Shown one piece after another: positions 13,428-29,302 of a DNA stretch of 64,000 nt (within the stretch, counting starts at the first letter, position 1; the number at the start of each line of letters is the position of its first letter). The notes under the pieces were generated by a model. That model did no database searches, was not told the origin of the DNA, and saw only the letters and a list, made by a program, of their open reading frames with translations. The translations under genes were made by a program, and so were the position numbers. Source of the DNA: Sandaracinus sp. GTDB lineage: Bacteria; Myxococcota_A; Polyangia; Polyangiales; Houyiibacteriaceae. Location: assembly GCA_002699025.1 (NCBI GenBank), contig PABA01000232.1, positions 122,609-186,608 of the forward strand, written 5' to 3'.

Positions 13428-14810
13428 TCACTCGAGGCCGGCGACCTCGAGCGGGGTCGCGCTCGGGAGCCGGTCCTCGCGACCGAGCTGCCGGCGACCG
13501 TTCCAGCCCCAGCACCACACGCTGCCGTCGTCGAGGAGCGCGCAGGTCGTCTGGAAGCCGGCGGCCACGGCGACGGCCGTGCCCTCGAGGTCGACCTCGG
13601 TCGGCGAGAGCAGACAGTCCACGGTCGTCGTCGCCGTCGTGCAGGTCGAGTGACCCTCGATCGATCCGTCGCCGATCTGGCCCTCCTCGTTGGAGCCCCA
13701 GCAGAAGACGGAGCCGCCCGAGATGGCGCAGCTGTGCTCGTGGCCCACGGCGATCTGCGTGACGTCGCTCAGGCCGGGCACGGCCTGGGGCGTGTCGTTG
13801 CCCGTGTCCGTGTTGCCGAGGCCGAGCTGGCCCGCGAAGTTCGCGCCCCAGCAGACCACCGTGCCGTCGGTCTGCAGCGCGCAGACGTGCTCGGAGCCGA
13901 GGTCCATCTGCTCGATGGTGCTCGCGTCGATCTCGGCCTCGACCGGCGTCCGGGAGCAGTCGTAGGTGGTCGCGCTGTCGTCCGTGCACTCGTCCGGCTG
14001 GTCCTCGCCGTTGCCGAGCTGGCCGGCGCGGTCCGAGCCCCAGCAGGAGATGGCGCTCGCCGTGCGGGCGCAGGCGAACTGGCCGCCGCTGGCGACGTCG
14101 ACCTCGAGCGCGTCCGCGATCTCCACGTTCACCGGCAGGACGCTCTCCTCGACCTCCGAGTCGTCGCCGAGCTGGCCGCTCGTGTTGTCGCCGCTGCAGC
14201 GGACGGCGCCGCTCATGACGGTGCCGCAGGTGTTGATGCTGCCCGTGTCGAGCAAGGTCGGGTTGCTCCAGCCCATGACCTCCTCCGGGAGGAAGCGGCG
14301 CACGCGCTGATCGGAGCCGAGCGGGGGCACGTCCGAGAGACCCCAGCAGAACACGCCCTCCGCGGAGAGCGCGCAGTTGGAGGGGCCGCCGTTCGCGGTG
14401 ATCGTCGTGGCCTCGAGGCCGACGACGGAGACCGGCTCGGCGGAGCAGTCGACGACCTCGACGCCGCCGTCGGAGCAGTCGCCGTGGCGCATGCGATCGT
14501 CGCCGAGCTGGCCGAAGACGTTGCCGCCCCAGCAGAGGACCTCGCCGTTCTCGCGGCGCCCGCAGACGTGGTCGAAGCCCACGACGAGCTCCTCGATGGC
14601 GCACCCTTCGGTGCAACCCATCGGGCCGGCGTCCGTGCCGGCGTCCTCCTCGACGGGGCCGGAGTCGACGCCGCCGCCGGCGTCCTCTTCCACCATGGCG
14701 TCGGGCGTGCCCGCGTCCTCGTCGGGGGCGTCGTCGTCCCCACAGGCGCCCAGCACGAGGGCACAAGCCAAGAGGGACCGCAAGGTCCACGCGTTCCGGT
14801 CGATCGTCAT
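13428..14810 (-). CDS. RCC1-repeat lipoprotein
   Basis: The 460-residue protein starts at ATG 14810 behind GGAGGAGAG. The signal ends ALVLGAC followed by GDDDAPDEDAG, a lipobox with an acidic linker typical of this organism's lipoproteins. From residue about 75 there are repeated units of the form CALxxDGxVxCWGxNxxGQLG, roughly six or seven, which is the RCC1/regulator-of-chromosome-condensation propeller repeat. Bacterial members form beta-propellers at the cell surface or periplasm, and their partners are mostly unknown. The repeats carry extra Cys pairs, suggesting disulfides. The gene is monocistronic: a hairpin terminator follows it. Confidence 0.88.
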   Translation of the reverse strand: MTIDRNAWTLRSLLACALVLGACGDDDAPDEDAGTPDAMVEEDAGGGVDSGPVEEDAGTDAGPMGCTEGCAIEELVVGFDHVCGRRENGEVLCWGGNVFGQLGDDRMRHGDCSDGGVEVVDCSAEPVSVVGLEATTITANGGPSNCALSAEGVFCWGLSDVPPLGSDQRVRRFLPEEVMGWSNPTLLDTGSINTCGTVMSGAVRCSGDNTSGQLGDDSEVEESVLPVNVEIADALEVDVASGGQFACARTASAISCWGSDRAGQLGNGEDQPDECTDDSATTYDCSRTPVEAEIDASTIEQMDLGSEHVCALQTDGTVVCWGANFAGQLGLGNTDTGNDTPQAVPGLSDVTQIAVGHEHSCAISGGSVFCWGSNEEGQIGDGSIEGHSTCTTATTTVDCLLSPTEVDLEGTAVAVAAGFQTTCALLDDGSVWCWGWNGRRQLGREDRLPSATPLEVAGLE

Positions 14811-15068: not shown

Positions 15069-17099
15069 TCAGAGCGCGACGCGCACGCGGGTCAGCTCGC
15101 CCTCGCGGATCGTGACCCGATGACGCCGCTCGGGGCGCCCGGGGGCCCGCAGCACGAGCACGTGACGCCCGGCGGGGAGGCGCACGTTCGTCAGCGGCGT
15201 CGTCCCGAGGAGCCGGCCGCCGAGGTAGACCCGGCTCCAGGGCTGGGTGGCGATGGCGAGGCTCCCGCGGCCGCGCGGTCGCCGCATGGCCGAGCCGGTG
15301 GCCGGCGCCTCCTCGAGGACGACCGAGAGCGTGGAGGTCGCCCCGGCGCGCGCCTCGATCGTCTGCCGATGCTCCACGTGCCCCTCGAGCGCGAGCACGA
15401 CCTCGTGCTCCCCTGGGGCGACCTCGAAGGCGAGCGGCGTGCGCCCGGCCCGCTCCTCGCCGACGCGCACCTCGGCGCCGGCGGGCTGGCTCACGATGCG
15501 GAGCTCCGCCCGCTCGGCCGCCGCCTCGAGGACCACCTCCCGCTCCTCGCCCCCGGCGAGCTCGATCCCGCTCTCCTGGACGATCTCGTCTCCGCGGCGC
15601 ACGGCGAGCCGATGCGCCCCCGCCTCGACCCGGAGGCGGAGCGGCGCTGGCCCGCGCGGCTCGCCGTCGAGGCTCACGTCGAGCCCGGACGGGACGGTCC
15701 GCACGCGCAGCCAGGCCTGCGGGGGCGCGCTCGGCGTCACCGTCGCCGGAGGCGGCGTCGGTCCGGGAGGCGCGAGGGGAGGCGGAGCCGGCGCGCTCGG
15801 CCAGAGCAGCCAGGCGCCGAGCCCCCCGGCGGCGAGGAGCGCGAGCACGACCAGAGCCGCCCAGCGACGGCGCGGCGCGGGGCGCACGGAGGGGAGGCGC
15901 TCCGTCGGGTGCGAGGGGCGCCGCGGCTCCGCCGAGCTCGCCGGCCCGGGGAGATCCGCCGCGCCGAGCGGGACCGGGTCGAGATCCGTCGAGCCGCCGT
16001 GCTCGCCCAGGGGAGCGAAGCCCGAGGCCAGGTCGAAGGCGTCCTCGGGCACGGCCGGAGTGGGGAGCTCCACCGTGCCCGGCGGCGGGAGCGCGGTCGT
16101 CAGCGGGACCGTACCGGCGGCGCGCGGCGCGCGGCGGTCCTCGGCCACGACGTCCGGGAAGAGGGCGCTGACGTAGCGCCCGAGCTCCACCTGGTCGGAG
16201 GGCTCGGAGCGGCGCAGGAACTTCTCGAGGTCGGCGCGGAGCGCGAGGGCGTCCGGGTAGCGCCGCTCCCGGCGGGCCGCGAGGCAGCGCTCGACGACCC
16301 CCCGGAGGCCGCGCGGGAGCTGCTTCAGGCGCTCCGGCCGGGGGATGCGCCCGGAGGCGGCGGCGATCTTCGCCTCGCGCGGATCGTCGTGGGGGAAGAG
16401 CGTGTCCCCGGTGAGCGCCTCGAAGAGGAGGATGCCCACGTTGAAGAGGTCCGAGCGCCGGTCGAGGGGCTCGCCGCGCGACTGCTCGGGGGAGAGGTAG
16501 GCGTACTTGCCGCGCACCTTCCCGACGCGCGTCACCTCCCGCTTGCTCGTGCGCTGGAGCTTGGCGACGCCGAAGTCCACGACCTTCACCGCGCCGTCGA
16601 AGGAGACGAGCACGTTGGAGGGGGTGACGTCGCGGTGCACCAGGCCCAGCGGGCGACCCTGCCCGTCCGTCATCCCGTGGGCGTGGGCGAGCCCCTCGCA
16701 GACGAAGGAGAGGATCTTGGCCGCGTGGTGGGCCGGGAGGGCGCCGACGGCGGAGCGGCCGCGGAGGTGGGCCCGGGCCGTCTCGCGGGCGCGCTGGATG
16801 AGGGCGCGGAGGTCGACGCCCCGGACGAGCTCCATGACGAGGTAGGGCGTGCCGGCCTCCTCGCCGAAGTCGTAGACGTGCACGACGTTCGGGTGGCTGA
16901 GGCGCGCGGCGATGCGGGCCTCCTCCCGGAACATGGCCGTGAACTCCGGGTCCTCGGCGAGGTGCGGGAGGATGCGCTTCACCACGAGGTCGCGCCGGAA
17001 GCCCTCCGGGCCCTCCTTCCGAGCGAGGAAGATCTCCGCCATGCCGCCCTTCGCGAGGCGGCGCTGGAGGAGATAGGGGCCGAGGGGGATGCCTCCCAC
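15069..17099 (-). CDS. Transmembrane Ser/Thr protein kinase with three PEGA domains (copy 1)
   Basis: The 676-residue protein is placed from GTG 17099 because the kinase fold (GPYLLQRRLAKGGMAEIFLA) begins only a few residues later; an in-frame GTG at 17168 would add 23 residues without domain content. Key kinase motifs are VVKR (ATP-anchoring Lys), HRDVTPSN (catalytic loop), DFGVAK and SPEQSRGE. After an Ala/Pro-rich linker there is one transmembrane helix (WAALVVLALLAAGGLGAWLL, about residue 415). Three periplasmic PEGA domains follow, the last reading QPWSRVYLGGRLLGTTPL. The kinase is cytoplasmic and the PEGA part external. It is divergent from the FG-GAP lipoprotein and TPR-like genes, and its arrangement is mirrored by the kinase at 23875. 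Confidence 0.9.
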   Translation of the reverse strand: MGGIPLGPYLLQRRLAKGGMAEIFLARKEGPEGFRRDLVVKRILPHLAEDPEFTAMFREEARIAARLSHPNVVHVYDFGEEAGTPYLVMELVRGVDLRALIQRARETARAHLRGRSAVGALPAHHAAKILSFVCEGLAHAHGMTDGQGRPLGLVHRDVTPSNVLVSFDGAVKVVDFGVAKLQRTSKREVTRVGKVRGKYAYLSPEQSRGEPLDRRSDLFNVGILLFEALTGDTLFPHDDPREAKIAAASGRIPRPERLKQLPRGLRGVVERCLAARRERRYPDALALRADLEKFLRRSEPSDQVELGRYVSALFPDVVAEDRRAPRAAGTVPLTTALPPPGTVELPTPAVPEDAFDLASGFAPLGEHGGSTDLDPVPLGAADLPGPASSAEPRRPSHPTERLPSVRPAPRRRWAALVVLALLAAGGLGAWLLWPSAPAPPPLAPPGPTPPPATVTPSAPPQAWLRVRTVPSGLDVSLDGEPRGPAPLRLRVEAGAHRLAVRRGDEIVQESGIELAGGEEREVVLEAAAERAELRIVSQPAGAEVRVGEERAGRTPLAFEVAPGEHEVVLALEGHVEHRQTIEARAGATSTLSVVLEEAPATGSAMRRPRGRGSLAIATQPWSRVYLGGRLLGTTPLTNVRLPAGRHVLVLRAPGRPERRHRVTIREGELTRVRVAL

Positions 17100-17212
17100 G
17101 CCGAGGAGGGTAGTACACGGGCGGCGGGGCGAGGCGCGTCCTGGCTCGCGGCGTGTGGAGGAGCGCACGCGGGCCTTTCCGGGCGCGGCCGTGGGGTGGC
17201 AAGGTGCGCCGG

Positions 17213-18550
17213 ATGGCGGCGGTGCCGACGCGGAACGGAGAGGCGGGGGCGGTCCTGCGCGCCGCGCTCATGGACGGGCGGCTCCGGAGCGCCGTGCTCC
17301 CGGCCGCGGCGCTCCCGGCTGCGCTGCTCCCGGCGACGGTGCTCCTGAGCGCCTTGCTCCTGGGCTGCGGGGACGAGCGGGGCCTGCAGGTCCGCCTCGA
17401 CGTCCCGGAGGGGGCCGCGCCGGCGCAGGTCTGCCTGACCGCCCACGGGGCCGGGGAGCTCGTCTTCGCCCGGAGCTGGCCGGCCGACGAGGCGCGCGGC
17501 GGCACGCTGACCTTCGTCGCCGGGGACCGGGTCGACCGGCGGTTGCGCCTGAGCGCGCGGCTCCGGCGCGGCGGGCGCCGGGTCGCGGACGCGACGGCGG
17601 AGGAGAGCTTCGCGCCGGCCGCCGAGCGCGTCGTGGACCTCGAGCTCGCCCGCTGCCACCCGCGGAGCGCCCCACCGCCGGAGATCGTCGTGGGCGCCGT
17701 GAGCGGCGCCGAGCGGCTCGCGGCCGGCGATCTGGACGGGGACGGCGTGGACGAGGTCGTCGCGAGCGGCCCGGACGGGGCGACCGTGCTCGGCGGCGAG
17801 GTGCTCTCGAGCGAGCCGCTCCGCGTGAGCGGCCTGGCGGACCTCGACGGGGACTGCCTCCCCGAGGTCTTCGGGGTGAGCGCGAGCGGCGTCGTCGCCC
17901 TCCCGACGGGGACGCTCTCGGCGCGCGGGGAGCACGTGGTCGTGGGGGACGCCGGGCAGGGGCTCGGCGTCGGCGCGGGCGACGCGGACGGGCTCCGCTG
18001 GGGGCTGGTCGACGGCGTGATGCGCGGGCTCACGGGCTCGCCCGTGCGCGGGCTCGCGATCGGCGACCTGAACGGCGACGGCGTGGACGACCTGCTGGCG
18101 GTGGGCGAGGCGGGGGTGTCCGCCTTCTTCGGAGGCCCCGCGGGCCCGACGGCGGCCGTGGGGACCGCGCCGACGGCGTGGACCGGCCAGAGCGTGGCGC
18201 TCGGCGACTTCGACGACGACGGCGCGCTGGACGCGGCCGTGGGCGGGGACGGGCTCGTGCGCGTGGGGCGCAACCGCGGCGACGGGCTGCTCGAGGGGCG
18301 GCCGACGCTGGACGCACCAGGCGTGCGCGCGCTCCGGGCCATCGACGCGGACGGCGACTGCGCCGACGACCTGGTCGTGCTCGGCGAGGGCGAGGCCACG
18401 CTCTGGCTCGGGGCGGAGGACGCCGCGCTCCGCGAGGGCGGCGCGCTGCCGGGCGTGCTCGACGCGGTGGCCGCGGATCTGGACGGCGACGGGAGCCGGG
18501 AGCTGGTGCTGCTCGGCGCGGACGGAGAGGTGCGGACGTGGGTGCCCTGA
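17213..18550 (+). CDS. FG-GAP/VCBS-repeat lipoprotein
   Basis: This 445-residue protein starts at ATG 17213; a second in-frame ATG at 17270 would give a more usual signal length. The hydrophobic region is built of near-repeats (LPAAALPAALLPATVLLS) and ends ALLLGCGDE, a lipobox. Residues about 160-440 carry repeated DLDGDGVDE / DLNGDGVDD / DFDDDGALD calcium-binding loops of FG-GAP/VCBS beta-propellers. Such proteins sit in the outer membrane or periplasm and bind proteins or sugars. The next gene starts inside its last codons (13-bp overlap), so the two are coupled. Confidence 0.85.
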   Translation: MAAVPTRNGEAGAVLRAALMDGRLRSAVLPAAALPAALLPATVLLSALLLGCGDERGLQVRLDVPEGAAPAQVCLTAHGAGELVFARSWPADEARGGTLTFVAGDRVDRRLRLSARLRRGGRRVADATAEESFAPAAERVVDLELARCHPRSAPPPEIVVGAVSGAERLAAGDLDGDGVDEVVASGPDGATVLGGEVLSSEPLRVSGLADLDGDCLPEVFGVSASGVVALPTGTLSARGEHVVVGDAGQGLGVGAGDADGLRWGLVDGVMRGLTGSPVRGLAIGDLNGDGVDDLLAVGEAGVSAFFGGPAGPTAAVGTAPTAWTGQSVALGDFDDDGALDAAVGGDGLVRVGRNRGDGLLEGRPTLDAPGVRALRAIDADGDCADDLVVLGEGEATLWLGAEDAALREGGALPGVLDAVAADLDGDGSRELVLLGADGEVRTWVP

Positions 18551-19545
18551 TCCCGCGCGGCGGCCCGGCGGGCGCGGTGGCCCTCCTCCCATCGCTCCTG
18601 GCCGTGCTCCTCGCGCTGCCCGCGCCGGCTCGCGCGCAGACGCCCACGGGGGAGCGCGGACCGGCGGCCCAGAGCGAGCCGGCCCAGAGCGAGCCCACCG
18701 AGAACGAGGCCGAGGGCGGGAGCGACGCCACGCCGGCCGGCCCCGAGGCGCCGACCCCGCCACCGGGGAGCGCCGCCGCCGTCGCCGCCGAGCACCTCGC
18801 AGACGGGCGCCGGCTCTACCGCGAGCTCGACTTCCCGGGCTGCGTCGACGCCATGCAGCGCGCCCTGGCCGTGCCCGGCGTTGGCCCGGCGCAGCGCCTC
18901 GAAGCCTACGAGTACCTCGGCGCGGCGAACGTCGTCCTCGACCGGGAGGCCGAAGCGGAGGCCGCCTTCCTCGCCATGTTCGAGCTCGACCCCTACCACC
19001 GGGTGCGCGAGCCGAGCGGCTCGCCGAAGATCGAGCGCTTCGTGGAGGCGCTGCGCGCGCGGACCGTGGCCGACGCGGCCCTCGACGGGGAGCTCCGGCT
19101 CGAGGCGACGCTCCCCCGGGCGGCGCGGATGGACCGGCCGATCCCCGTGCGCGTCGACGTGGAGGGCGGCGAGGTCGCGAGCGTGCGCGTGCACCTGCGC
19201 GGCGACGAGGAGACCGAGTGGCGGAGCGTCGCCCTCCCCGGCGGGCCGCGCCGCTTCGAGGGGGAGCTGCCGGGGTTGGACACGACCGGGCGCCTCGAGG
19301 TCTACGCGCAGGCCCGGGACGCGGCGCGGCGGGTGGTGGCGCGGGCGGGGGAGCCGCTGGTGCCGCTGGTCGTCGAGATCCGCGAGCGGGTGGAGGACCC
19401 GACGCCGCTGCGGCGCAAGTGGTGGCTCTGGACGGCTGTGGGCGTGGTGGCGGCGGGCGTCGCCCTGGGCGTCGGCGTCGCGGTGGCGGGCCGGGAGACG
19501 GCGCCCGCGGGGACGCTCCAGCCGGGCCGCGTCGAGCTCCCCTGA
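18538..19545 (+). CDS. Exported TPR-like protein with C-terminal membrane anchor (copy 1)
   Basis: The 335-residue protein starts at GTG 18538, overlapping the FG-GAP gene by 13 bp. It has a signal peptide (cleavage after ARAQT), a Pro/Glu/Thr-rich spacer, and a helical TPR-like region (residues about 80-165, AAEHLADGRRLYRELDFPGC). A beta-sandwich-like region follows (about 180-290). One transmembrane helix (WLWTAVGVVAAGVALGVGVAVAG) precedes the short tail APAGTLQPGRVELP. The protein at 25892 has the same order of parts and a matching tail (APDGTLGNVSLR), and both genes diverge from a PEGA-domain kinase. They are probably partners of those kinases. The exact function is unknown. Confidence 0.75.
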   Translation: MGALIPRGGPAGAVALLPSLLAVLLALPAPARAQTPTGERGPAAQSEPAQSEPTENEAEGGSDATPAGPEAPTPPPGSAAAVAAEHLADGRRLYRELDFPGCVDAMQRALAVPGVGPAQRLEAYEYLGAANVVLDREAEAEAAFLAMFELDPYHRVREPSGSPKIERFVEALRARTVADAALDGELRLEATLPRAARMDRPIPVRVDVEGGEVASVRVHLRGDEETEWRSVALPGGPRRFEGELPGLDTTGRLEVYAQARDAARRVVARAGEPLVPLVVEIRERVEDPTPLRRKWWLWTAVGVVAAGVALGVGVAVAGRETAPAGTLQPGRVELP

Positions 19546-19657
19546 GCGCGCGGAGGCGCGCGCGGCGCCTCCCACGCGAAGCGCCGACGCCGGTTGGAAG
19601 GTGGGCCGGCAGGGCCCCGACCGAGGCGAACGGAGCGCTCGAGCGGATCTCTTCTGC

Positions 19658-19700
19658 GGGCCGTGCTTCGTCGCGAGGCGCGCCAGCTCGTTCCGGCTCG
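19658..19700 (-). pseudogene. Vestigial duplicate of the FHA regulator's helix-turn-helix tail
   Basis: These 43 bp match 19777-19818, the last codons of the FHA regulator, at roughly nine bases in ten. On the minus strand they read ASRNELARLATKHGP, against LDRNYLARLAKKHGLR in the intact gene. The rest of the copy is not recognisable, so this looks like the decayed end of a tandemly duplicated regulator or a short segmental duplication. The surrounding 19546-19768 gap has no other gene. Confidence 0.55.
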
Positions 19701-19768
19701 CGGCGAGCGGAGGCACTCGGGCGGAGGCGCTCGGGTGGAGCCCCTCCGCTCGATTTCCCCGCCGCTCG

Positions 19769-20974
19769 CTACCGGAGGCCGTGCTTCTTCGCGAGGCGCG
19801 CCAGGTAGTTCCGGTCGAGGCCCGCCTCGGCCGCCGCCCGGCTCACGTTCCCGTCGTGGCGCTGGAGGAGCGCCGCCACGTAGCGCCGCTCGAAGGCGTC
19901 GACGAGCTTCTCCTTCGCCTCCTTGAAGGGCAGCCCGGCGACGTCGGCCATCGGCGGCGGCGGCTGCGAGGGGCGCGCCGGGGCCGCCGTCACGAGCAGC
20001 TGCTCCACGAGCCGCGCCAGCTCCCGCACGTTGCCCTCGAAGCGATGCGCCCCGAGCGGCGCGAGCTCCTCCGCCGAGAGCGTCATCCCCGGGTGCCCGA
20101 GGCGCGCGGCCAGCTCCCCGACGAGCAGCGGCACGTCCTCCCGGTGTTCGCGCAGCGGCGGCAGCACCACACGCAGCGCCGCCAGGTGGAAGTAGAGGTC
20201 GCGCCGGAGCGCCCCCTCCTCCACGCGCCGCCGCAGATCCACCCGGCTCAGGCCGATGGGCCGCACGTCCAGCGAACCGCGCTCCCGCGCGTCGAGGCTG
20301 GCCACGAGATGCGCCGCCTGGGGCCCGCTCAGCCGCTCGAGCCGGTCGAGCACCAGCGTGCCGCCCTCCGCCGCCGCCGCCGCGCTCGTCACGTCGCCCC
20401 CCACGGCGAGGTCCAGCACCACCAGCGGTCCGCCCTTCCGCGCCGAGGCCGCGTGCAGCGCCTGCGCCGCCGCGCTCTTCCCCGTCCCGGCCTCGCCCTC
20501 GATCAGCAGGGGCGCGTCGCTCGCGGCCGCCCGCTGCAGGAGCCCGAAGACCCGCCGCATGGCCGCGCTCGAGCCGACGAGCGGCCCGAAGCGATCGAGC
20601 TCCGGCGGCGCCTCCGGCGCGGGCAGGTCCGCGGGCACCAGCTCGATGCGCGTCCGCCCGACGCGGATCTCCGCCGCCGGGTGCAGCACGACGCTCTCGA
20701 CCCGCGAGTCGCCGACGTAGGTGCCGTTCGTCGAGCCGAGGTCGCGCACGCGCACGCCGTCGCTCAGGAGCCCGAGCTCCACGTGGAAGCGCGAGACCGC
20801 CCCGTCGTCGACGACGAGGTCCGCGTCCGGGTGGCTCCCGATGACCATCGTCCCGTCCTCGAGCACGGCCTCGGCGCCCTTCGACGCGCCGGAGACCACC
20901 CGCACGAGGAGCCGGCGAAGGACCACCTCGCCTCCGGCGTTCGTCGTCAAGACGCCCGTGCGCGCCGGCTTCAT
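19769..20974 (-). CDS. FHA-domain AAA+ regulator lacking the sigma54-contact loop
   Basis: The 401-residue protein has an FHA domain (residues about 20-105: IGSHPDADLVVDDGAVSRFH, then RDLGSTNGTYV), which in the family binds phosphothreonine. The AAA+ part (about 125-320) has Walker A GEAGTGKS and the GNVREL segment. However, the region where GAFTGA should lie is missing (ALHAASARKGGPLVVLDLAV, then GGDVTSAAAAAEGG). The Walker B motif reads LVLDRLERL, with Arg where the catalytic Glu is expected. The C-terminus is a Fis-like helix-turn-helix (HDGNVSRAAAEAGLDRNYLA). It probably binds DNA and phosphoproteins but is unlikely to remodel sigma54 polymerase. Its start overlaps the stop of the glycosidase-like gene (ATGA). 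Confidence 0.85.
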   Translation of the reverse strand: MKPARTGVLTTNAGGEVVLRRLLVRVVSGASKGAEAVLEDGTMVIGSHPDADLVVDDGAVSRFHVELGLLSDGVRVRDLGSTNGTYVGDSRVESVVLHPAAEIRVGRTRIELVPADLPAPEAPPELDRFGPLVGSSAAMRRVFGLLQRAAASDAPLLIEGEAGTGKSAAAQALHAASARKGGPLVVLDLAVGGDVTSAAAAAEGGTLVLDRLERLSGPQAAHLVASLDARERGSLDVRPIGLSRVDLRRRVEEGALRRDLYFHLAALRVVLPPLREHREDVPLLVGELAARLGHPGMTLSAEELAPLGAHRFEGNVRELARLVEQLLVTAAPARPSQPPPPMADVAGLPFKEAKEKLVDAFERRYVAALLQRHDGNVSRAAAEAGLDRNYLARLAKKHGLR

Positions 20975-22233
20975 CGGCGCCTCCACGGACGCGCGAGCGC
21001 ACCGAGGAGGAGGACCGCGAGCGCGCCGCGCCCACCTGCCCCGCCGGCGCCGCCTGCCGCGCAGCCCGAGCCGACGCCACTGCCGCCCGGACCGACGCCC
21101 GCGTCCGCCTCGGGCGCCCCGGCGTCCATCGCCTCCGGCCAGGGGCCGACCTCGAGCACCCGCGGCGGCGGCTCGCAGCGCTGCTCGCCTTCGCCCGGCG
21201 CGAGGAAGAGGCTGCACCACACGTCCTCGCTCGGCACGCCCACGCAGACCTTGCAGCCCGTCCGATAGCCCGGGTGCGACGCCCGTACGACGTACTCGCG
21301 AACGGGCACGGTGAACTCCCAGTACGCCTGGTCCGTGAGCGTGCCGCCCATGGTCACGACCCGCCCGTCGAGCGCCTCGAGCTGGAGCTCCGCGCCGACC
21401 AGCCGCCCGTCCTCGTCGCCCTCGACGCCGACGATGCCGCGGAGGCGGGTGGTCTGCCCGCTCGCCCGATCGACCACCCCGACGAAGGCCGCGCTCGGCC
21501 GGGCCGCGCCATCGCTCGAAGCCGACGCCACCGCCCCGCCCGCCCAGAGCAGGCTGGTCGCGCCCTCCCCCGTCCGCACGGCGTCGCGCGCGCCCGCGTC
21601 CCGGAGGAGCGCCCCGAGCTCGGCATCGGTCACGCCCGGGCTCGCCGGCCGATCGCCCTCGGCGACCACCGCCACGAGGATCCGCCCGGACTCGTCGAGC
21701 CCGACGCCGGTCCGCGAGGTGCGCTCGCAGCCCCGCCCGACGCAAGCGTCCACGGGCGCGCCGGCCCGCAGCACCTCCACGCCGCTCACGACGTTCTCCA
21801 TCCAGGCCTCCGCCGGCACGACCTGCCGCGGCGGCACGTAGACGCCCACGCCCCGCGCGTCGAAGGCGAGCACGGCCAGCCCGCCGTCGTCCTCCGTCTG
21901 GGCCCAGGCCTCGCCGGCCCCCACCGTGAGCCCCTCCGGCTGGTAGCTCGGGAAGCGGAAGTCGCCGCCCTGCACGGCCACGACCGCGCCGGGCACGGCG
22001 GCCGCCCAGGACTCGACGGAGCGCGCGCTCTCGCTCGGCCGGCTCACGCGCAGGCCGAGATCCCCCGCGCCGAGATCGGCCCGCACGCGCCACCAGCGTC
22101 GCTCGCTCGCCTCGCAGCGCTCCACGGTCACGCCCGTGGCGGGCGCCTCGACCTCCGCACACTGGGCGCGAGCGGCGAGCGGGGAGAGGGCGGCGAGGAG
22201 GAGAGCGCAAACGGCGACGCGCACGGAAGCCAT
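20971..22233 (-). CDS. Exported phosphodiester glycosidase-like protein with MYXO-CTERM-like tail
   Basis: This 420-residue protein has a signal peptide ending PLAARAQ. Residues about 45-260 show the NAGPA/phosphodiester glycosidase pattern: AVQGGDF, then GVGLDESGRILVAVVAEG, ELGALLRDAGARDAV and GEGATSLLWAGG. This family removes covering sugars from sugar-phosphate diesters or trims cell-envelope glycans. A beta-rich domain with clustered Cys follows (about 290-370). The end, GSGCAAGGAGGAGG then a hydrophobic stretch and RPWRRR, fits a MYXO-CTERM-type sorting signal: Cys near a Gly-rich helix with an Arg tail. The gene is coupled to the FHA regulator by an ATGA overlap, an unusual pairing of a surface protein with a regulator. 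Confidence 0.75.
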   Translation of the reverse strand: MASVRVAVCALLLAALSPLAARAQCAEVEAPATGVTVERCEASERRWWRVRADLGAGDLGLRVSRPSESARSVESWAAAVPGAVVAVQGGDFRFPSYQPEGLTVGAGEAWAQTEDDGGLAVLAFDARGVGVYVPPRQVVPAEAWMENVVSGVEVLRAGAPVDACVGRGCERTSRTGVGLDESGRILVAVVAEGDRPASPGVTDAELGALLRDAGARDAVRTGEGATSLLWAGGAVASASSDGAARPSAAFVGVVDRASGQTTRLRGIVGVEGDEDGRLVGAELQLEALDGRVVTMGGTLTDQAYWEFTVPVREYVVRASHPGYRTGCKVCVGVPSEDVWCSLFLAPGEGEQRCEPPPRVLEVGPWPEAMDAGAPEADAGVGPGGSGVGSGCAAGGAGGAGGRGALAVLLLGALARPWRRR

Positions 22234-22316
22234 GGTATCAGCCCGCCGCCCCGCCGGAGGCGCGAAGGCGCCGGCCGTGACCTGCCCTCCCCGATCCCGA
22301 GTCGAGCGCACGCCCC

Positions 22317-23006
22317 TCACTCCCCGAGGATCACCTGCATGGCCCGCGGGTCGCGGAGGTTCTCCACCACGTGCGGCGCCCCCGCCTCGCGGAGCACGTC
22401 GGCCCCATGACCGCCCGTCGCCACCGCCACGCAGGTCGCCCCGATGGCCGCCGCCGCGCTCACGTCCCGCGGCGTGTCGCCGATGACCACGACCCGGCAG
22501 GCCTCGAGGGGCTGCCCCAGCGCCGCGGCGCCGCGCTCGGCCCCGTGCCGGATCAGCTCGCCCCGATCCTCCGCGTCGTCCCCGAAGCCTCCGAAGGCGA
22601 AGCGCGTGTCCAGCCCCGCCCGCGAGAGCTTCAGGAAGGCGCCCTTCTCGACGTTCCCGGTGCCGAGCCCGAGGGCCAGGTGGGCGCCCGCGACGGCGAG
22701 CGCCTCGACCACCTCGAGGACGCCGGGGAGCACCTCGTAGCCCTCCGAGCGCGGCAGCTCCTCGGCGAGGTGGCCGAGGTAGACCGCGATGATCCGCTCG
22801 AAGAGCGCCTCCTCGAAGGGCCGCCCGATGGCCCGGAGCCCCTCGCGGAGGATGAGCCGGTCGGTCATGCCGCCGAGCTCGATCCGATCGAGGGCCGTCG
22901 CGTCCCCCGTCACCTCGCCGAAGGCCTGGGCCATGGCGCGCCGACCGGCGCCGCCCGTGTTCACGAGCGTTCCGTCGACATCGAAGAGGAGCACGCTGGG
23001 CTGCAT
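22317..23006 (-). CDS. HAD-family phosphatase, phosphoglycolate phosphatase-like
   Basis: The 229-residue protein carries DVDGTLVNT (motif I, nucleophile Asp), LGTGN (motif II region), a conserved Lys-containing stretch and VVIGDTPRDV (motif IV). An alpha-helical cap sits between motifs I and II. This is the usual Gph/PGMB-type layout for cytoplasmic hydrolysis of small phosphate esters; the substrate cannot be assigned. It starts at ATG 23006 and stands about 80 bp upstream of the glycosidase-like gene on the same strand. Confidence 0.85.
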   Translation of the reverse strand: MQPSVLLFDVDGTLVNTGGAGRRAMAQAFGEVTGDATALDRIELGGMTDRLILREGLRAIGRPFEEALFERIIAVYLGHLAEELPRSEGYEVLPGVLEVVEALAVAGAHLALGLGTGNVEKGAFLKLSRAGLDTRFAFGGFGDDAEDRGELIRHGAERGAAALGQPLEACRVVVIGDTPRDVSAAAAIGATCVAVATGGHGADVLREAGAPHVVENLRDPRAMQVILGE

Positions 23007-23115
23007 CGGCGCACACTAAAGCGCATCTCTCCGCGAGCGCCAGGCGCGCGCTCTGGTGCCCTCCATCGCGCCCCGCGTGTTTGCCGCCGCCGCCCCGCGG
23101 GGATAGGACGGGGGG

Positions 23116-23829
23116 GTGCCGGCCCTCGACGCCGAGCTGCTGACCAGCCTGCCGGTCTGGTTCGTGGCCACCCTCCTCTCGCTGACCCTCCACGAGGCCG
23201 GCCACGCGCTCCTGGGCCGCTGGGGCGGAGACGACACGGCGAGTGAACAGGTCACGCTCGACCCGACGCCCCACGTGCGGCGCGAGCCCGTCGGCATGAT
23301 CCTCGTGCCGATCCTCAGCTTCCTCTTCAACGGGGGGAGCTGGATGATCGGCTGGGCCTCGGCGCCCTACGACCCGCTCTGGGCCGAGCGGCATCCGAAG
23401 AAGGCGGCGCTCATGGCCGCGGCCGGGCCCCTCTCGAACTTCCTGCTCGCCGCCCTCGCCGCCGGCGCCATCCACCTCGGGCTCGCCTCCTTCGGCTGGC
23501 AGCAGCCGCTCCGGGGCGTGGACCTCGCGAGCGTCGTCGTCGGTCCCGAGGGCACGCCGACCGTCTTCACGACCTTCTTCAGCGTGCTCTTCTCCGTGAA
23601 CGTGCTCCTCGGCTTCTTCAACCTCCTGCCGATGGCGCCGCTCGACGGGCACGCGGTCGTGCCCCTCTTCCTGAGCGAGAAGCTCACGCACAAGTGGCAC
23701 GCGCTCTTCGAGGACCGGGGCGCCGCGATGGTCGGCCTCATCCTGGCGTGGGTCATCTTCGGCCGCCTCGCCTGGCCGATCTTCCGCATCGCCCTGAACG
23801 TCCTCTACCCCGGCTCGAGCTACGGCTGA
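23116..23829 (+). CDS. Membrane zinc metalloprotease, M50 (site-2 protease-like)
   Basis: The 237-residue protein starts at GTG 23116. It has HEAGH in the first membrane segment (Zn-binding His pair plus catalytic Glu) and NLLPMAPLDGH in a later segment, which supplies the third ligand Asp. Four to five hydrophobic helices can be seen, and there is no PDZ domain. M50 proteases of this short type cut substrates within the membrane and often release anti-sigma or signalling proteins. It is convergent with the second PEGA kinase gene, with a 45-bp gap. Any substrate among neighbours is guesswork. Confidence 0.85.
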   Translation: MPALDAELLTSLPVWFVATLLSLTLHEAGHALLGRWGGDDTASEQVTLDPTPHVRREPVGMILVPILSFLFNGGSWMIGWASAPYDPLWAERHPKKAALMAAAGPLSNFLLAALAAGAIHLGLASFGWQQPLRGVDLASVVVGPEGTPTVFTTFFSVLFSVNVLLGFFNLLPMAPLDGHAVVPLFLSEKLTHKWHALFEDRGAAMVGLILAWVIFGRLAWPIFRIALNVLYPGSSYG

Positions 23830-23874
23830 GCTCATGGCGGAGCTGGAGCGTTCCTCCGGCGGAGCCGCGCCCGC

Positions 23875-25773
23875 CTACCGGATGTCCGAGAGGTCGTAGA
23901 AGACCCGCGTGTCCTCGCCGGTCATCACGCTCACGCTGCGGGCGTGCTCGTTGCCGTCCCGGTCGACGATCCGGAGCCGCACGTTGCCCGCGGGCACCTC
24001 GGCCCGGCCGATCGGCGTCGTGCCGAGCAGGCGCGAGCCGACGTAGACCTTCGACCAGGGCCGCGTGTTGATCGACACCGAGCCCGGCGCCGACGGCGCC
24101 TCCTCCATCGCGGGCGCCTCGCGCATGCGCGGCGCCGCGCTCGCCCGCCGGATGGGCCGGAGGCGCCCCTCGATCTCCGCGCGCTCGTCCGCCTCGACCC
24201 GGACCGTGCCGGCCCAGCTCCGGTACCCGTCGCGCTCCATCACCACCGCGTACTCGCCGACCTCCACGTCGCCGAGGGCCGTCGGCGTGGTGCCGGGCAC
24301 GCGGCGCTCCCCGAGCTGCACGGTCGCGCCGCTCGGCTCGCTCCGGAAGAGCACCGAGCCCCGCGCCGCGGGCGCCTCCTCCATCGTCGGCTCGGGCGCG
24401 ACCGGCTCGGCCGGCGTGGGGGCCTCCGCCTGCATCGCCGAGCCCTGGATCGCCGCGGCCTGCATCGCCGAAGCCGGCGCGGGCTCCACGGGCGTGGGCG
24501 TCGTCGCCGCCACCTCCGCCGCCTGGGCCGGCCCCTCGCCACCGAGCAGCGCCCAGGCCACGCCGAAGCCGACCGCCAGGAGCAGCAGGATCCCGCCCAC
24601 GATCCACAGGGCGCGCCGCGCCGGCAGGTCCTCCTCCGGCTCGGCGAGGTCCACCTCGATGGGCGCGCCGGGCCCCACGGGCGCCCCGAGGGCGACGCCG
24701 GCCGGCGGCGAGAGCGACTCCTCCGCCACCGGCGGCGGCGCGATCGGCTCCTTCTGCTCGACGATCTGGAAGCTCTCGCCGAAGGGCGTCGAGTCGACCA
24801 TCGGCCCCTGCTGGAGATCCTCGCCGAAGAGGTCGTGCAGGTACGCCTCGATGCGCGTCTGCGGGACGACCTCCTGCTCGATCGCCAGCCAGCGCTCGAG
24901 CTCCACCTGCATCTGCCCGGCGTCGGCGAAGCGATCGTCCGGCTTCTTCGCCAGCGCCCGCTGCACCAGCCGATCGAGGGCCTCGGGGATCTCCGGCCGA
25001 TGCTTTCGCACCGAGGGCACGGGCTCCTCGAGCACCGCCCGCATGGTCTCGTACTGGGTCTTGCGGTGGTAGAGCGGCCGCCCCGTCAGCGCCTCGAAGA
25101 GGCAGACGCCGAGGGCGAAGATGTCGCCACGCCCGTCGAGGGGCTCGCCCAGGCACTGCTCCGGCGACATGTAGGCGAACTTGCCCTTCACCTGCCCGTC
25201 CTGCGTCTTCGTGTGCTGGATCGACGCCTTGGCGATGCCGAAGTCGAGGAGCTTCACCGTGCCCTCGTAGCTCACCATGATGTTCTGCGGGCTCACGTCC
25301 CGGTGGACGATGCCGAGCGGCTGGCCGTCGTCGCCGCGCAGGTGGTGGGCGTAGTGCAGCGCCTCGGCGATGCGCGCGATGACCTTCACGGCGATGGGCG
25401 CGGGGATGCCGTCGTGGTCGCGGGCCTTGCGGATGAGCTTCCCGAGGGCGACGCCGTCGATCCACTCCATCGCGATGAAGTAGCTGCCCGCCTCCTCGCC
25501 GAACTCGTAGAGGTGGACGATGTTCGGGTGGTGGAGGCGCATGGCCAGCCGCGCCTCGTCGAAGAACATCGTGACGAAGGTCTCGTCATCGGCGACGTGC
25601 TGGAGCACCCGCTTGATGACCACGTGCCGGGCCCCCGCGCCCTGGACGGCCGAGGTCTCGCGGGCGAGGTAGATCTCCGCCATCCCCCCGACGGCCAATC
25701 GCCCGAGGAGCTCGTAGCGGCCGAACTGACAGATGGCGGGGAGCGACCGGACCATGGAGCGGTCGGCGGACAT
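23875..25773 (-). CDS. Transmembrane Ser/Thr protein kinase with two PEGA domains (copy 2)
   Basis: The 632-residue protein starts at ATG 25773. The kinase domain (residues about 15-290) has RLAVGGMAEIYLAR, VVIKR, HRDVSPQN, DFGIAK and SPEQCLGEP. A variable linker leads to a single transmembrane helix (ALWIVGGILLLLAVGFGVAW, about residue 390). An Ala/Pro/Glu-rich spacer with repeated SAMQA units follows, then two PEGA domains, the last reading RPWSKVYVGSRLLGTTPI. That last domain is nearly identical in pattern to the final PEGA of the kinase at 15069. The gene diverges from the TPR-like gene at 25892 across 118 bp, so both promoters share that region. Confidence 0.92.
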   Translation of the reverse strand: MSADRSMVRSLPAICQFGRYELLGRLAVGGMAEIYLARETSAVQGAGARHVVIKRVLQHVADDETFVTMFFDEARLAMRLHHPNIVHLYEFGEEAGSYFIAMEWIDGVALGKLIRKARDHDGIPAPIAVKVIARIAEALHYAHHLRGDDGQPLGIVHRDVSPQNIMVSYEGTVKLLDFGIAKASIQHTKTQDGQVKGKFAYMSPEQCLGEPLDGRGDIFALGVCLFEALTGRPLYHRKTQYETMRAVLEEPVPSVRKHRPEIPEALDRLVQRALAKKPDDRFADAGQMQVELERWLAIEQEVVPQTRIEAYLHDLFGEDLQQGPMVDSTPFGESFQIVEQKEPIAPPPVAEESLSPPAGVALGAPVGPGAPIEVDLAEPEEDLPARRALWIVGGILLLLAVGFGVAWALLGGEGPAQAAEVAATTPTPVEPAPASAMQAAAIQGSAMQAEAPTPAEPVAPEPTMEEAPAARGSVLFRSEPSGATVQLGERRVPGTTPTALGDVEVGEYAVVMERDGYRSWAGTVRVEADERAEIEGRLRPIRRASAAPRMREAPAMEEAPSAPGSVSINTRPWSKVYVGSRLLGTTPIGRAEVPAGNVRLRIVDRDGNEHARSVSVMTGEDTRVFYDLSDIR

Positions 25774-25891
25774 GGGGGCGCAATATAGCGGGTTCCGCGG
25801 CAAACGCCGGCCGGCGTTGGCCGGACGCGGTGACGAAGCGGTGACGGCGCGGCCGGTGGCTCGGGACCGGCGAGTCGGCTAACGTCGCGCC

Positions 25892-26764
25892 GTGACGCGC
25901 CTCTCCGCCCTCCTGGTCCTCACGCTCGCGCTCCTCTCGGCGGCCGCCCCGGCCCACGCGCAGCCCTCGCCCTCCGTGGCCCTGGCGGAGATCCGCGAGA
26001 TGATCCTCTACGCCCGCTACGACGAGGCGATCGCCGCGGCCCAGTCGTTCCTCGAGCGCGAGGGCCTGGCCGCGCGGGACCGGAACATCGGCCTCGAGGT
26101 GCTCGCGACGGCGCACCTCGCGAACCGCGACCAGGAGAACGCCGACCGCGTGCTCGGCGAGCTCTACCGCCGCGACCCGGGGCACCGCCTGACCGACGGC
26201 GACGCGAGCCCCTTCGTGCAGGCCGCCTTCCAGCGGGCGCGGGAGCGGCTGCCCGAGACCATCGCCGTGACCCTCGCGCACACGCCTCCGTCCATCGAGG
26301 GGCGCGAGTCGCCGCTGATCGAGGTGGGCGTGAGCGAGGGCGTGGAGGCCGTGCAGGAGGTCCGCCTCGCCTACCGGACCAACGACTCGCCGCGCTTCGC
26401 CCGGCTGGTCATGAACCTCGACGAGGACGGCGTCGCCCGGGGGCGCGTGCCGTTGGTGGGCGCGCCGAACGCCGCGCAGACCGTGCAGTACTTCATCCTC
26501 GCGCTGGCGCCGTCCGGGACGCCGCTCGCGCAGGTGGGCGACGAGGCCGAGCCCCTCGAGCTGACCATCCCCCCCGCCGTGCAGGACGACGTGCGCGCCA
26601 TCGCCGTGCCCGAGGAAGAGGACGACGAGGTCGACGAGGGCGGCAGCCTCTGGTGGGTGGGCCTCTTGGTGGGCATCGTCGCCATCGGCGCCGGCGTCGG
26701 CGTCGGCCTGGCGCTCCGCGAGGACGCCCCGGACGGCACGCTCGGCAACGTCAGCCTGCGCTGA
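25892..26764 (+). CDS. Exported TPR-like protein with C-terminal membrane anchor (copy 2)
   Basis: This 290-residue protein starts at GTG 25892 and has a signal peptide ending AAPAHAQP. Residues about 30-115 are helical and TPR-like (REMILYARYDEAIAAAQSFL). Residues about 125-235 look like a beta-sandwich. An acidic stretch (EEEDDEVDEGG) precedes one transmembrane helix (WWVGLLVGIVAIGAGVGVGLAL) and the tail APDGTLGNVSLR. Its layout matches the protein at 18538, and both lie beside PEGA kinases. It may relay or shape the kinase's periplasmic input; no enzymatic motif is present. Confidence 0.78.
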   Translation: MTRLSALLVLTLALLSAAAPAHAQPSPSVALAEIREMILYARYDEAIAAAQSFLEREGLAARDRNIGLEVLATAHLANRDQENADRVLGELYRRDPGHRLTDGDASPFVQAAFQRARERLPETIAVTLAHTPPSIEGRESPLIEVGVSEGVEAVQEVRLAYRTNDSPRFARLVMNLDEDGVARGRVPLVGAPNAAQTVQYFILALAPSGTPLAQVGDEAEPLELTIPPAVQDDVRAIAVPEEEDDEVDEGGSLWWVGLLVGIVAIGAGVGVGLALREDAPDGTLGNVSLR

Positions 26765-26815: not shown

Positions 26816-28207
26816 TCACCCCTTCAGCGCCGCGAGCAGCTCGCGCCCCGTCTTCGTGATGTCGCCCGCCCCGAGCGTCACCACCACGTCCCCCGGCTCG
26901 AGCCGCGCGCGCATCGCCTCCACCAGGTCCGTCCGCTTCGCCACGTGGGTCACGTCCCGGTGCCCATGCGTCCGGATCGCCTGCACCAGGTTCTCCGTCT
27001 CGGCCCCCGCGATCGGCTTCTCCCCGGCGGCGTACACGTCGGTCACGAAGAGCACGTCGGCCCGGTTGAAGGCCCGCACGAGCTCGTCGAAGAGGTGGTG
27101 CGTCCGCGAGTAGCGATGCGGCTGGAACGCCACCACCAGCCGCCGCTCGTAGGCCCGCTGCGCCGCCTCCAGCGTCACCGCGATCTCCGCCGGGTGGTGC
27201 CCGTAGTCGTCCACCACCACCACGGGCTCGCCCGCGCCCTCGAGCGCATGCTCGCCGACGATGGTGAAGCGCCGCTGCACGCCCCCGAAGCTCGCCAGGC
27301 TCTCGGCGACCTTCTCCATCGGCACCTGCAGCTCGTCGGCGATGGCCACCGTGCAGAGCGCGTTCAACACGTTGTGGATGCCCGGCATGGACACCGTGAA
27401 GTCCCCGAGCGACTCGCCGCGCCGCACCACCTCGAAGCGCACGCTCAGCCCCTCCATGCGCAGGTTCCGCGCCCGGTAGTCGGCCTGCGCCGCGAGCCCG
27501 TAGGTCGCGATGCGCTTGTCGAGGCGCGGCAAGATGTCCTGCACGTTCGGGTGGTCGAGGCAGGCGACCACGAGCCCGTAGAAGGGCACGCGGTTGGCGA
27601 AGGCCACGAAGGCCGCCTTCACGCCCTCGAGCGTGCCGTAGTGATCGAGGTGCTCGGGATCGATGTTGGTGATCGAGGCGATGGCCGGCGTGAGGTGCAG
27701 GAAGGAGCCATCGGACTCGTCCGCCTCGGCCACCAGGAGGTCGCCCGCGCCCCGCGCCGCGCCCGAGCCGAGCGCGTTCAGCTTGCCGCCGATGACGACC
27801 GTCGGGTCCAGCCCCGCGTCGCGCAGCACCGTGGCAACGAGCGAGGTGGTCGTCGTCTTCCCGTGGGAGCCGGCGATGGCGATGCCGTCCTTGAGGCGCA
27901 TCAGCTCGCCGAGCATCTCGGCCCGCGGGATGACCGGGATGCCGTGGGCGCGCGCCTCGACGAGCTCCGGGTTCTCGCGCGGCACGGCCGACGAGAAGAC
28001 CACCACGTCGGCCCCCGCCACGTGCGCGGCGGCGTGCCCCTGGTGGATGGTCGCGCCCTTGTCGACGAGCCGCTTCGTGTACTCGTTCTCGCGGAGGTCC
28101 GAGCCGGTCACGGTGAACCCGTGGTCGACGAGCACCTCGGCGATGCCGCTCATGCCCACGCCGCCGATGCCGACGAAGTGGATGGACTTGATGCGTCCCC
28201 GGAACAT
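26816..28207 (-). CDS. murC: UDP-N-acetylmuramate--L-alanine ligase
   Basis: The 463-residue protein adds L-Ala to UDP-MurNAc using ATP, the first amino-acid step of cytoplasmic peptidoglycan precursor synthesis. It begins with the nucleotide-binding [12 protein letters not shown]. It then shows the Mur ligase P-loop [18 protein letters not shown], the [10 protein letters not shown] motif and the C-terminal DDYGHHP and FQPHRYSRT motifs that set MurC apart from MurD-F. The length is normal. It follows ftsQ after 51 bp and is the last dcw gene in this direction. In most bacteria murC precedes ftsQ, so the order here is unusual. Confidence 0.97.
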
Positions 28208-28258
28208 GCGCCCGGCTTTACCACGCGGGGCGTCTCCGGTCGCGCGCCGGCCGGTGGA

Positions 28259-29302
28259 TCAGCCCGCGTCCTCGGTCGCCGCCGCCGGCTCCTCGGGCTC
28301 TGGGGGCGTCGGATCGGGCTCCTCGCGGAGGCGGACCACCACCCGATCCGGGCGCCGCACGTTGTCGAGGACGACGTACTCGGGGCGGCTCTCGGTCTCG
28401 TCGAGGCGCTCGAGCACGCGGCGGAGCTTGCGGAGCTTGGGCAGCCAGGGGCCGCGCCCGAGCCGCACCTCCATGCCGTCGTCGCCGACGTAGAGCGTGA
28501 CCTCGTCGGTGGGCTGCACGTGCATCTCCCCGATCGGCTCGCGCCGCCAGAGCCCCGCGGCGCGGTAGTCGTGCATGAGCGCGACGACCTCGAGGAGCAG
28601 CGAGGTGCGGTAGGCGCGATCGCCCACGAAGCGCTGGCGCGAGACCCCGCTGACCAGGGGCACGTCCACCGGATCGCCGAGCTCGACCTTCTTGAAGACC
28701 GTGCCGTCCCGGCCGATGAGGTAGAGCTCGTCGCCGAGCGCGATCACCGCCACGGCCTCGTGCTCGCGGACCTCGATGGCGAAGGTGCCGGGGAGGCGGC
28801 GCTCGACCTCCGCCTCGGCGATCCAGGGGTGCCGCACGAGCCGCGCCCGCACGTCCTCCGGGCCGAGCTCGAAGACGTTCATCCCCGGGGCGAGCCCGGC
28901 GGCCTCGCGCACCGCGTCCTCCTCGAGGCGCTCCTGCCCGGCGATGGTGATCGTCTCGATGGCGAAGGCGGGGGAGGTGCGCACGTAGTCGCGCGTGAGG
29001 CGCCCGACGGCGACGGCGCCCGCCAGGGCCGCGAGCACCACGGCCGTCTTGGCGAGCGCGACGAGCGGCCCGCGCACCCGCGCCCAGAGCGCGCCCAGCC
29101 CCGGGCCCGCCTCGTCGTCGGAGGGCGGCGGCACGGACGCGAGCGGGGTCGTCGCGACGGCCATGGCCTCGGCGTCGTCGCGCGCCTTCGTGCGGGGCGC
29201 GGCGCCGGGCAGGCGCCGGTTCCGCGGCGGCGGCGCCTCGGACGGTTCCTCGTTCGCGCGGGCGGGGGAGGAGGAGCGGGGTCGGCGCGTCGTGCGGGGC
29301 AT
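28259..29302 (-). CDS. ftsQ: Cell division protein FtsQ (POTRA domain)
   Basis: This 347-residue protein has a basic, Pro-rich cytoplasmic N-terminus of about 75 residues. One membrane helix follows (ALAKTAVVLAALAGAVAVGRL). The POTRA domain (FAIETITIAGQERLEEDAVREAAGL) and the beta-rich FtsQ C-terminal domain (HPWIAEAEVERRLPGTFAIEV; VPLVSG) come next. FtsQ bridges early and late divisome proteins. No good ribosome site precedes ATG 29302; an in-frame Met about 46 residues in remains possible. A strong terminator separates it from the upstream lipoprotein gene, so ftsQ-murC should have its own promoter within about 55 bp upstream. ftsA and ftsZ do not follow. Confidence 0.92.
   Translation of the reverse strand: MPRTTRRPRSSSPARANEEPSEAPPPRNRRLPGAAPRTKARDDAEAMAVATTPLASVPPPSDDEAGPGLGALWARVRGPLVALAKTAVVLAALAGAVAVGRLTRDYVRTSPAFAIETITIAGQERLEEDAVREAAGLAPGMNVFELGPEDVRARLVRHPWIAEAEVERRLPGTFAIEVREHEAVAVIALGDELYLIGRDGTVFKKVELGDPVDVPLVSGVSRQRFVGDRAYRTSLLLEVVALMHDYRAAGLWRREPIGEMHVQPTDEVTLYVGDDGMEVRLGRGPWLPKLRKLRRVLERLDETESRPEYVVLDNVRRPDRVVVRLREEPDPTPPEPEEPAAATEDAG

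Follow-up and report, generated by a model that had tools for sequence, protein, structure and literature searches.

Kinases of the PASTA (PknB) type combine a kinase domain, one transmembrane (TM) helix and repeated extracytoplasmic sensor domains, and are encoded near cell-wall genes, and GarA and OdhI are FHA-domain proteins. What activates bacterial Ser/Thr kinases (STPKs) is an acknowledged open question (PMC6069109). In the GlnH–GlnX–PknG system, the Ser/Thr kinase is proposed to be under the control of a periplasmic binding lipoprotein together with a membrane protein, and the TPR domain of PknG couples detection to the phosphorylation of GarA/OdhI (PMC6069109, PMC8546545). Enhancer-binding proteins with an FHA domain have been studied in Myxococcus xanthus (Jelsbak 2005, cited in PMC4320627).

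The window analyzed here is the whole stretch of 64,000 nucleotides, and comes from a genome of 9.24 Mb in 238 contigs; in the genome collection, the best named relatives come from myxobacterial assemblies, of which several are labelled Sandaracinaceae or Polyangiaceae. It encodes two kinases with PEGA domains, KA and KB, each close to an exported protein, TA and TB, respectively, composed of TPR-type helices, an Ig-like domain and a C-terminal TM helix (hereafter TPR-TM). These four genes, located by a preceding sequence-only reading, are all confirmed, the two kinases through Pfam matches to both kinase and PEGA domains, and are listed below with the genes that accompany them.

15069..17168, minus strand: KA, Ser/Thr kinase with one TM helix and three PEGA domains (Pfam Pkinase 1.6e-32; PEGA 2.1e-33, three stretches); annotated start uncertain, relatives pointing further in.
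17213..18550, plus strand: FG-GAP lipoprotein gene, conserved neighbor of TA (Pfam FG-GAP_3 8.4e-20; lipobox LLGC; 13 bp overlap with TA; start uncertain).
18538..19545, plus strand: TA, exported TPR/Ig-like/C-terminal TM protein, tail GTLQPGRVELP (homology to the TB family; elements ordered as in TB).
19769..20986, minus strand: sigma-54 activator with an FHA domain, suggested as the output of module A (Pfam FHA 6.1e-15, Sigma54_activat 2.1e-18).
20971..22320, minus strand: phosphodiester glycosidase gene, syntenic and overlapping the FHA activator gene (Pfam NAGPA 6.7e-14; adjoins the FHA activator in L078, L079 and L099).
23875..25803, minus strand: KB, Ser/Thr kinase with one TM helix and two PEGA domains (Pfam Pkinase 1e-37; PEGA 4.9e-18, two stretches).
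25892..26764, plus strand: TB, exported TPR/Ig-like/C-terminal TM protein, tail GTLGNVSLR (AlphaFold2 pLDDT 87.4; TPR and Ig/FnIII fold matches).
26714..26761, plus strand: C-terminal tail of TB, residues 275–290, predicted to be disordered (pLDDT about 47–65).

The block formed by an activator, an RCC1 gene, KA, TA, the FG-GAP gene, the FHA activator, the glycosidase, a HAD gene, an M50 peptidase, KB and TB is largely kept in two sister-genus genomes. The gene for the RCC1-repeat protein (window positions 13428–14810) adjoins KA, and is also beside KA in L079. Gene calls at the genome loci derive from a simple codon-composition caller that was checked on the 64,000-nt window alone, and their start sites are uncertain. 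KA and KB each hold kinase and PEGA domains in one chain (Pfam matches above cut-off), and the HRD and DFG catalytic motifs are intact in the KA sequence; the Pfam search returned no TPR match and no PASTA domain in either protein, PEGA being the only domain found beside the kinase domain.

In the AlphaFold2 model of TB, a signal peptide is followed by five helices of TPR type, a beta sandwich of Ig-like form and a linker, then by a membrane helix (residues 254–274) and a disordered tail; the low-confidence model of TA, built with no alignment, repeats this succession of elements. Residues from about 23 to 119 of TB match TPR folds with Z scores of 10–11, middling values for helical repeats, with only marginal Pfam TPR matches, and residues 124–229 match the C-terminal domain of PPAD (Z 12.2, 2.8 Å over 102 residues) and also FnIII domains; Foldseek alone gave no match to a model as a whole, Pfam gave no family for TA or TB, and NCBIfam no convincing match for TB relatives. 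In single-sequence BLASTP the alignment of TA with TB is confined to the membrane helix and tail, and profile comparison extends it over 257 columns (99.9%, E 1.9e-34), so that by profile TA and TB are distant homologs along their whole length. The common architecture claimed by the sequence-only reading, a PEGA kinase with an exported TPR-like membrane partner, is thus upheld. The matching GTL tail that it reported is likewise conserved: 27 of 28 TB-type proteins carry G[TS]L close to the C-terminus (the remaining one has PSL), as do 8 of 9 TA-type proteins and 15 of 21 wider relatives, and the conserved tail position is occupied by T or S in every one of the 28 TB-type proteins. Nevertheless, conservation is equal in TB-type members linked to phosphoglucomutase (n = 9) or linked to neither gene, and the tail, being present with or without a nearby kinase, is a feature of the family and no marker of kinase pairing. 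The charges flanking the membrane helix weakly favor a cytoplasmic location of the tail; the NCBIfam matches of the 28 TB-type members include no C-terminal sorting-signal model, and the tails carry no basic cluster.

Sampling of genomes within the order gave 28 TB-type genes, of which 16 stand head-to-head with a PEGA kinase gene, 1 is co-directional with it, 9 directly follow a phosphoglucomutase gene (L082, L083, L084, L086, L089, L091, L094, L105 and L108; 15–91 bp downstream, same strand) and 2 show neither arrangement; the kinase directly adjoining a TB-type gene belongs to the KB clade in 17/28. A different STPK also lies about 3 kb upstream in five of the nine phosphoglucomutase-linked loci. 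The KB-TB pairing is not obligate: in a kinase search over 96 genomes of the order, G041 has kept TB and yielded no KB-clade kinase, and in G085 TB and a KB-clade kinase are both present and unlinked. The conserved pairing partly supports the earlier proposal of an envelope-sensing unit, but the word "dedicated" was too strong for a family in which 9 of 28 genes follow phosphoglucomutase. No lipoprotein or FHA gene occurs in the same transcript as TB. As a separate observation, at window positions 26816–29302 and in L075, L076, L077 and L080 KB/TB adjoin murC, sometimes together with ftsQ, which hints at a link with the cell wall or division; murC linkage was not found at the TB loci of L078 and L079, nor outside the family in the loci read.

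An FG-GAP gene is a neighbor in 10 of 12 TA-type loci, mostly directly upstream and overlapping, a KA-type kinase is nearby in 6/12, and an FHA/sigma-54 activator is found within 5 kb in 6/12. The FG-GAP gene followed by a TA-like gene recurs in six loci outside the order, in other families, and its constancy as a neighbor across TA-type loci and beyond the order makes it a conserved part of the arrangement rather than the insertion it had been taken for. In the two sister-genus genomes, the FHA activator, FG-GAP, TA and KA genes all run in the same direction with small overlaps or gaps, forming in L078/L079 an overlapping operon in the order FHA activator, FG-GAP, TA, KA; outside the order, L288 has an overlapping run of FHA activator, TPR-TM protein and lipoprotein, with a kinase 2.4 kb away. 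The conservation of an FHA/sigma-54 activator adjoining TA suggests that it may be the output of module A. When the FG-GAP N-terminus was compared by profile against four other lipoproteins, no significant sign emerged of an N-terminal domain common to the lipoproteins of the modules (best E 0.014, 3% probability).

Many kinases of the source genome adjoin exported TPR-TM genes in the loci read around kinases, often together with a lipoprotein gene. In genome-wide profile searches, with the seed sequences left out of the counts to avoid circularity, 3 of 7 (p 0.0036) and 7 of 29 (p 0.0004) matches have a listed STPK no more than 2 kb away, compared with 4.9% expected, and lipoproteins make up 10/17 of the genes co-transcribed with TPR-TM genes versus 44/388 of the other genes at the same loci (p 7.5e-6), a background that differs from a random genome sample because the loci were chosen around kinases and homologs; the background counts of both tests come from one genome. 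These results should be weighed alongside the null given by a broad filter for a signal peptide plus a C-terminal TM helix, which revealed no enrichment near kinases (9/151 vs 10/203, p 0.81), caught many unrelated proteins, e.g., with arginine-rich ends, and was replaced by the profile-based searches. In the same genome, an overlapping operon (G000:C212:658-5097) encodes a PEGA kinase, a solute-binding lipoprotein (Peripla_BP_6), a small lipoprotein and a TPR-TM protein; the solute-binding lipoprotein is confined to this C212 module, and neither module A nor module B of the window has one. A relatives scan was seeded with a 12-sequence subset of the TB alignment, and many wider TPR-TM relatives have no nearby kinase and adjoin prmA-type or other genes. 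The earlier reading would have fallen if the TPR-like proteins were mostly apart from PEGA kinases in other genomes; judged by this, the wider TPR-TM superfamily does often stand apart from kinases, as shown by the 9 of 28 TB-type genes behind phosphoglucomutase and by many wider relatives. In L112, L113, L115, L117, L119, L120, L121, L126 and L132 a short gene follows the wider TPR-TM relative; in L132, the one case checked, it is prmA (ribosomal protein L11 methyltransferase), and similar starts suggest the same elsewhere. No paper describing the kinase/TPR-TM pairing was found among open-licence papers.

The occurrence of two pairs of common architecture inside 12 kb, with homologous TA and TB families, could be explained by a recent tandem duplication of one module at this place, as the term "duplicated module" had implied, but this is very improbable and already contradicted by the kinship of the kinases. 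KA and KB are 34% identical overall, with similarity peaking at the PEGA core motif, and their PEGA domains were described too generously as near-identical. Among the STPK matches to KB in the genome, 106 at E<=1e-30, KA ranks only about 26th, many paralogs thus being closer to KB than KA is, and orthologous pairs occur separately in other families. A tree of 99 kinase domains gives a KA clade (support 100) with 5/5 kinases beside TA-type genes and, elsewhere, a KB clade of 28 rows that takes in 17/17 of the kinases directly adjacent to a TB-type gene. Two kinases labelled TB in the tree are not KB-like, the one of L081 being a distant second kinase of its locus and the one of L084 a different kinase ~3 kb off at a phosphoglucomutase-linked locus. 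Within the KB clade, 11 of the 28 rows have no adjoining TB-type gene, and 9 of those 11 constitute one subclade with other neighbors; some KB-like kinases without TB (L221, L222, L225 and L226) adjoin genes that by eye resemble ExbB/ExbD-type motor proteins. KA and KB are therefore in separate deep clades, each retaining its own partner type, and KA-TA and KB-TB are separate ancient partnerships and not the product of recent duplication.

The main rival, unlikely in our judgment but with a real share of the probability, sees the TPR-TM proteins as general envelope scaffolds, serving, for instance, cell wall or lipoprotein traffic, which stand beside kinases by chance in some lineages, the kinase acting without them. 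Some TPR-TM genes have phosphoglucomutase, prmA-type or murC genes as neighbors and no kinase, which keeps this explanation alive, and the persistence of TB without KB in G041 and the same tail in all branches agree with it; the 16 genes head-to-head with a kinase, the clade-specific pairing in the kinase tree and the genome-wide enrichment of seed-free matches near STPKs speak against it. A partner that is substrate and not sensor, with the kinase phosphorylating the conserved T/S of a cytoplasmic tail and the pair acting on cell-wall growth, would fit the constancy of that residue and the position of KB/TB near murC and ftsQ in close relatives, but is improbable, since the residue is equally conserved in the nine phosphoglucomutase-linked proteins and the murC linkage is restricted as described above.

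With moderate confidence, KA/TA and KB/TB may instead be regarded as instances of a recurring myxobacterial envelope-sensing STPK module, a reading whose observed basis is gene content, domains, conserved linkage, separate ancient partnerships and genome-wide enrichment. Support for the pairing of a TM Ser/Thr kinase and an exported TPR-TM protein comes from the linkage in 17/28 TB-type and 6/12 TA-type loci and from the seed-free matches genome-wide. The pair is not the whole unit, a lipoprotein often being a co-transcribed third part and an FHA/sigma-54 activator being linked in module A. We infer a topology in which the kinase would cross the inner membrane with its PEGA domains in the periplasm, and the exported partner would expose TPR and Ig-like domains there, with one C-terminal helix in the inner membrane and a short cytoplasmic tail. 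The lipoprotein whose gene often accompanies that of the partner, the FG-GAP protein in module A and the solute-binding protein in the C212 module, would capture or report an outside condition, and the TPR protein would pass this signal, presumably by contact, to the kinase, which would then phosphorylate a cytoplasmic target. In module A, this target is probably the linked FHA/sigma-54 activator, whose binding of phosphothreonine would switch transcription. In myxobacteria, predatory-type soil bacteria, TM STPKs repeatedly encoded beside an undescribed exported TPR-TM protein, often with a lipoprotein, look like a reusable sensing kit. More tentatively, myxobacterial STPKs might commonly be three-part receptors of lipoprotein, exported TPR-TM adaptor and TM kinase, reused many times per genome with differing lipoproteins, some of them having an FHA/sigma-54 activator as a dedicated output; if true, they would parallel, on the STPK side, two-component systems that have auxiliary sensors. 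The source genome alone has over a hundred STPK matches, and if exported TPR-TM proteins and lipoproteins are kinase inputs, gene order could assign inputs, and sometimes outputs, kinase by kinase.

Compared with known systems, KA and KB resemble PASTA kinases in the kinase domain, the one TM helix and the repeated extracytoplasmic domains, and in the case of KB also in the cell-wall gene neighbors, but have PEGA rather than PASTA domains and an exported TPR partner in addition. Proteins sorted by MYXO-CTERM or PEP-CTERM signals are, like TA and TB, exported and provided with a C-terminal hydrophobic helix, whereas the tail here is of the G[TS]L type without an arginine-rich cluster and matched no sorting-signal model. 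The M. xanthus enhancer-binding proteins, as presented in the citing paper, share with the FHA activator of the window the combination of FHA domain and sigma-54 activator, and proteins built in this way are expected to recognize Ser/Thr phosphorylation; the activator gene of the window differs in being linked to a specific kinase, a TPR-TM protein and a lipoprotein. With the actinobacterial GlnH–GlnX–PknG–GarA/OdhI system there are in common a lipoprotein sensor, a relaying membrane protein, a Ser/Thr kinase, a TPR scaffold and an FHA-domain output. The best reading is that the myxobacterial module would work like that system and is not a member of it, since modules A and B have neither a TPR domain inside the kinase nor a solute-binding lipoprotein encoded with it; the myxobacterial kinase is itself membrane-spanning and carries PEGA domains, the TPR domain is carried by a second protein, which is exported, and the FHA domain of module A is part of a linked sigma-54 activator.
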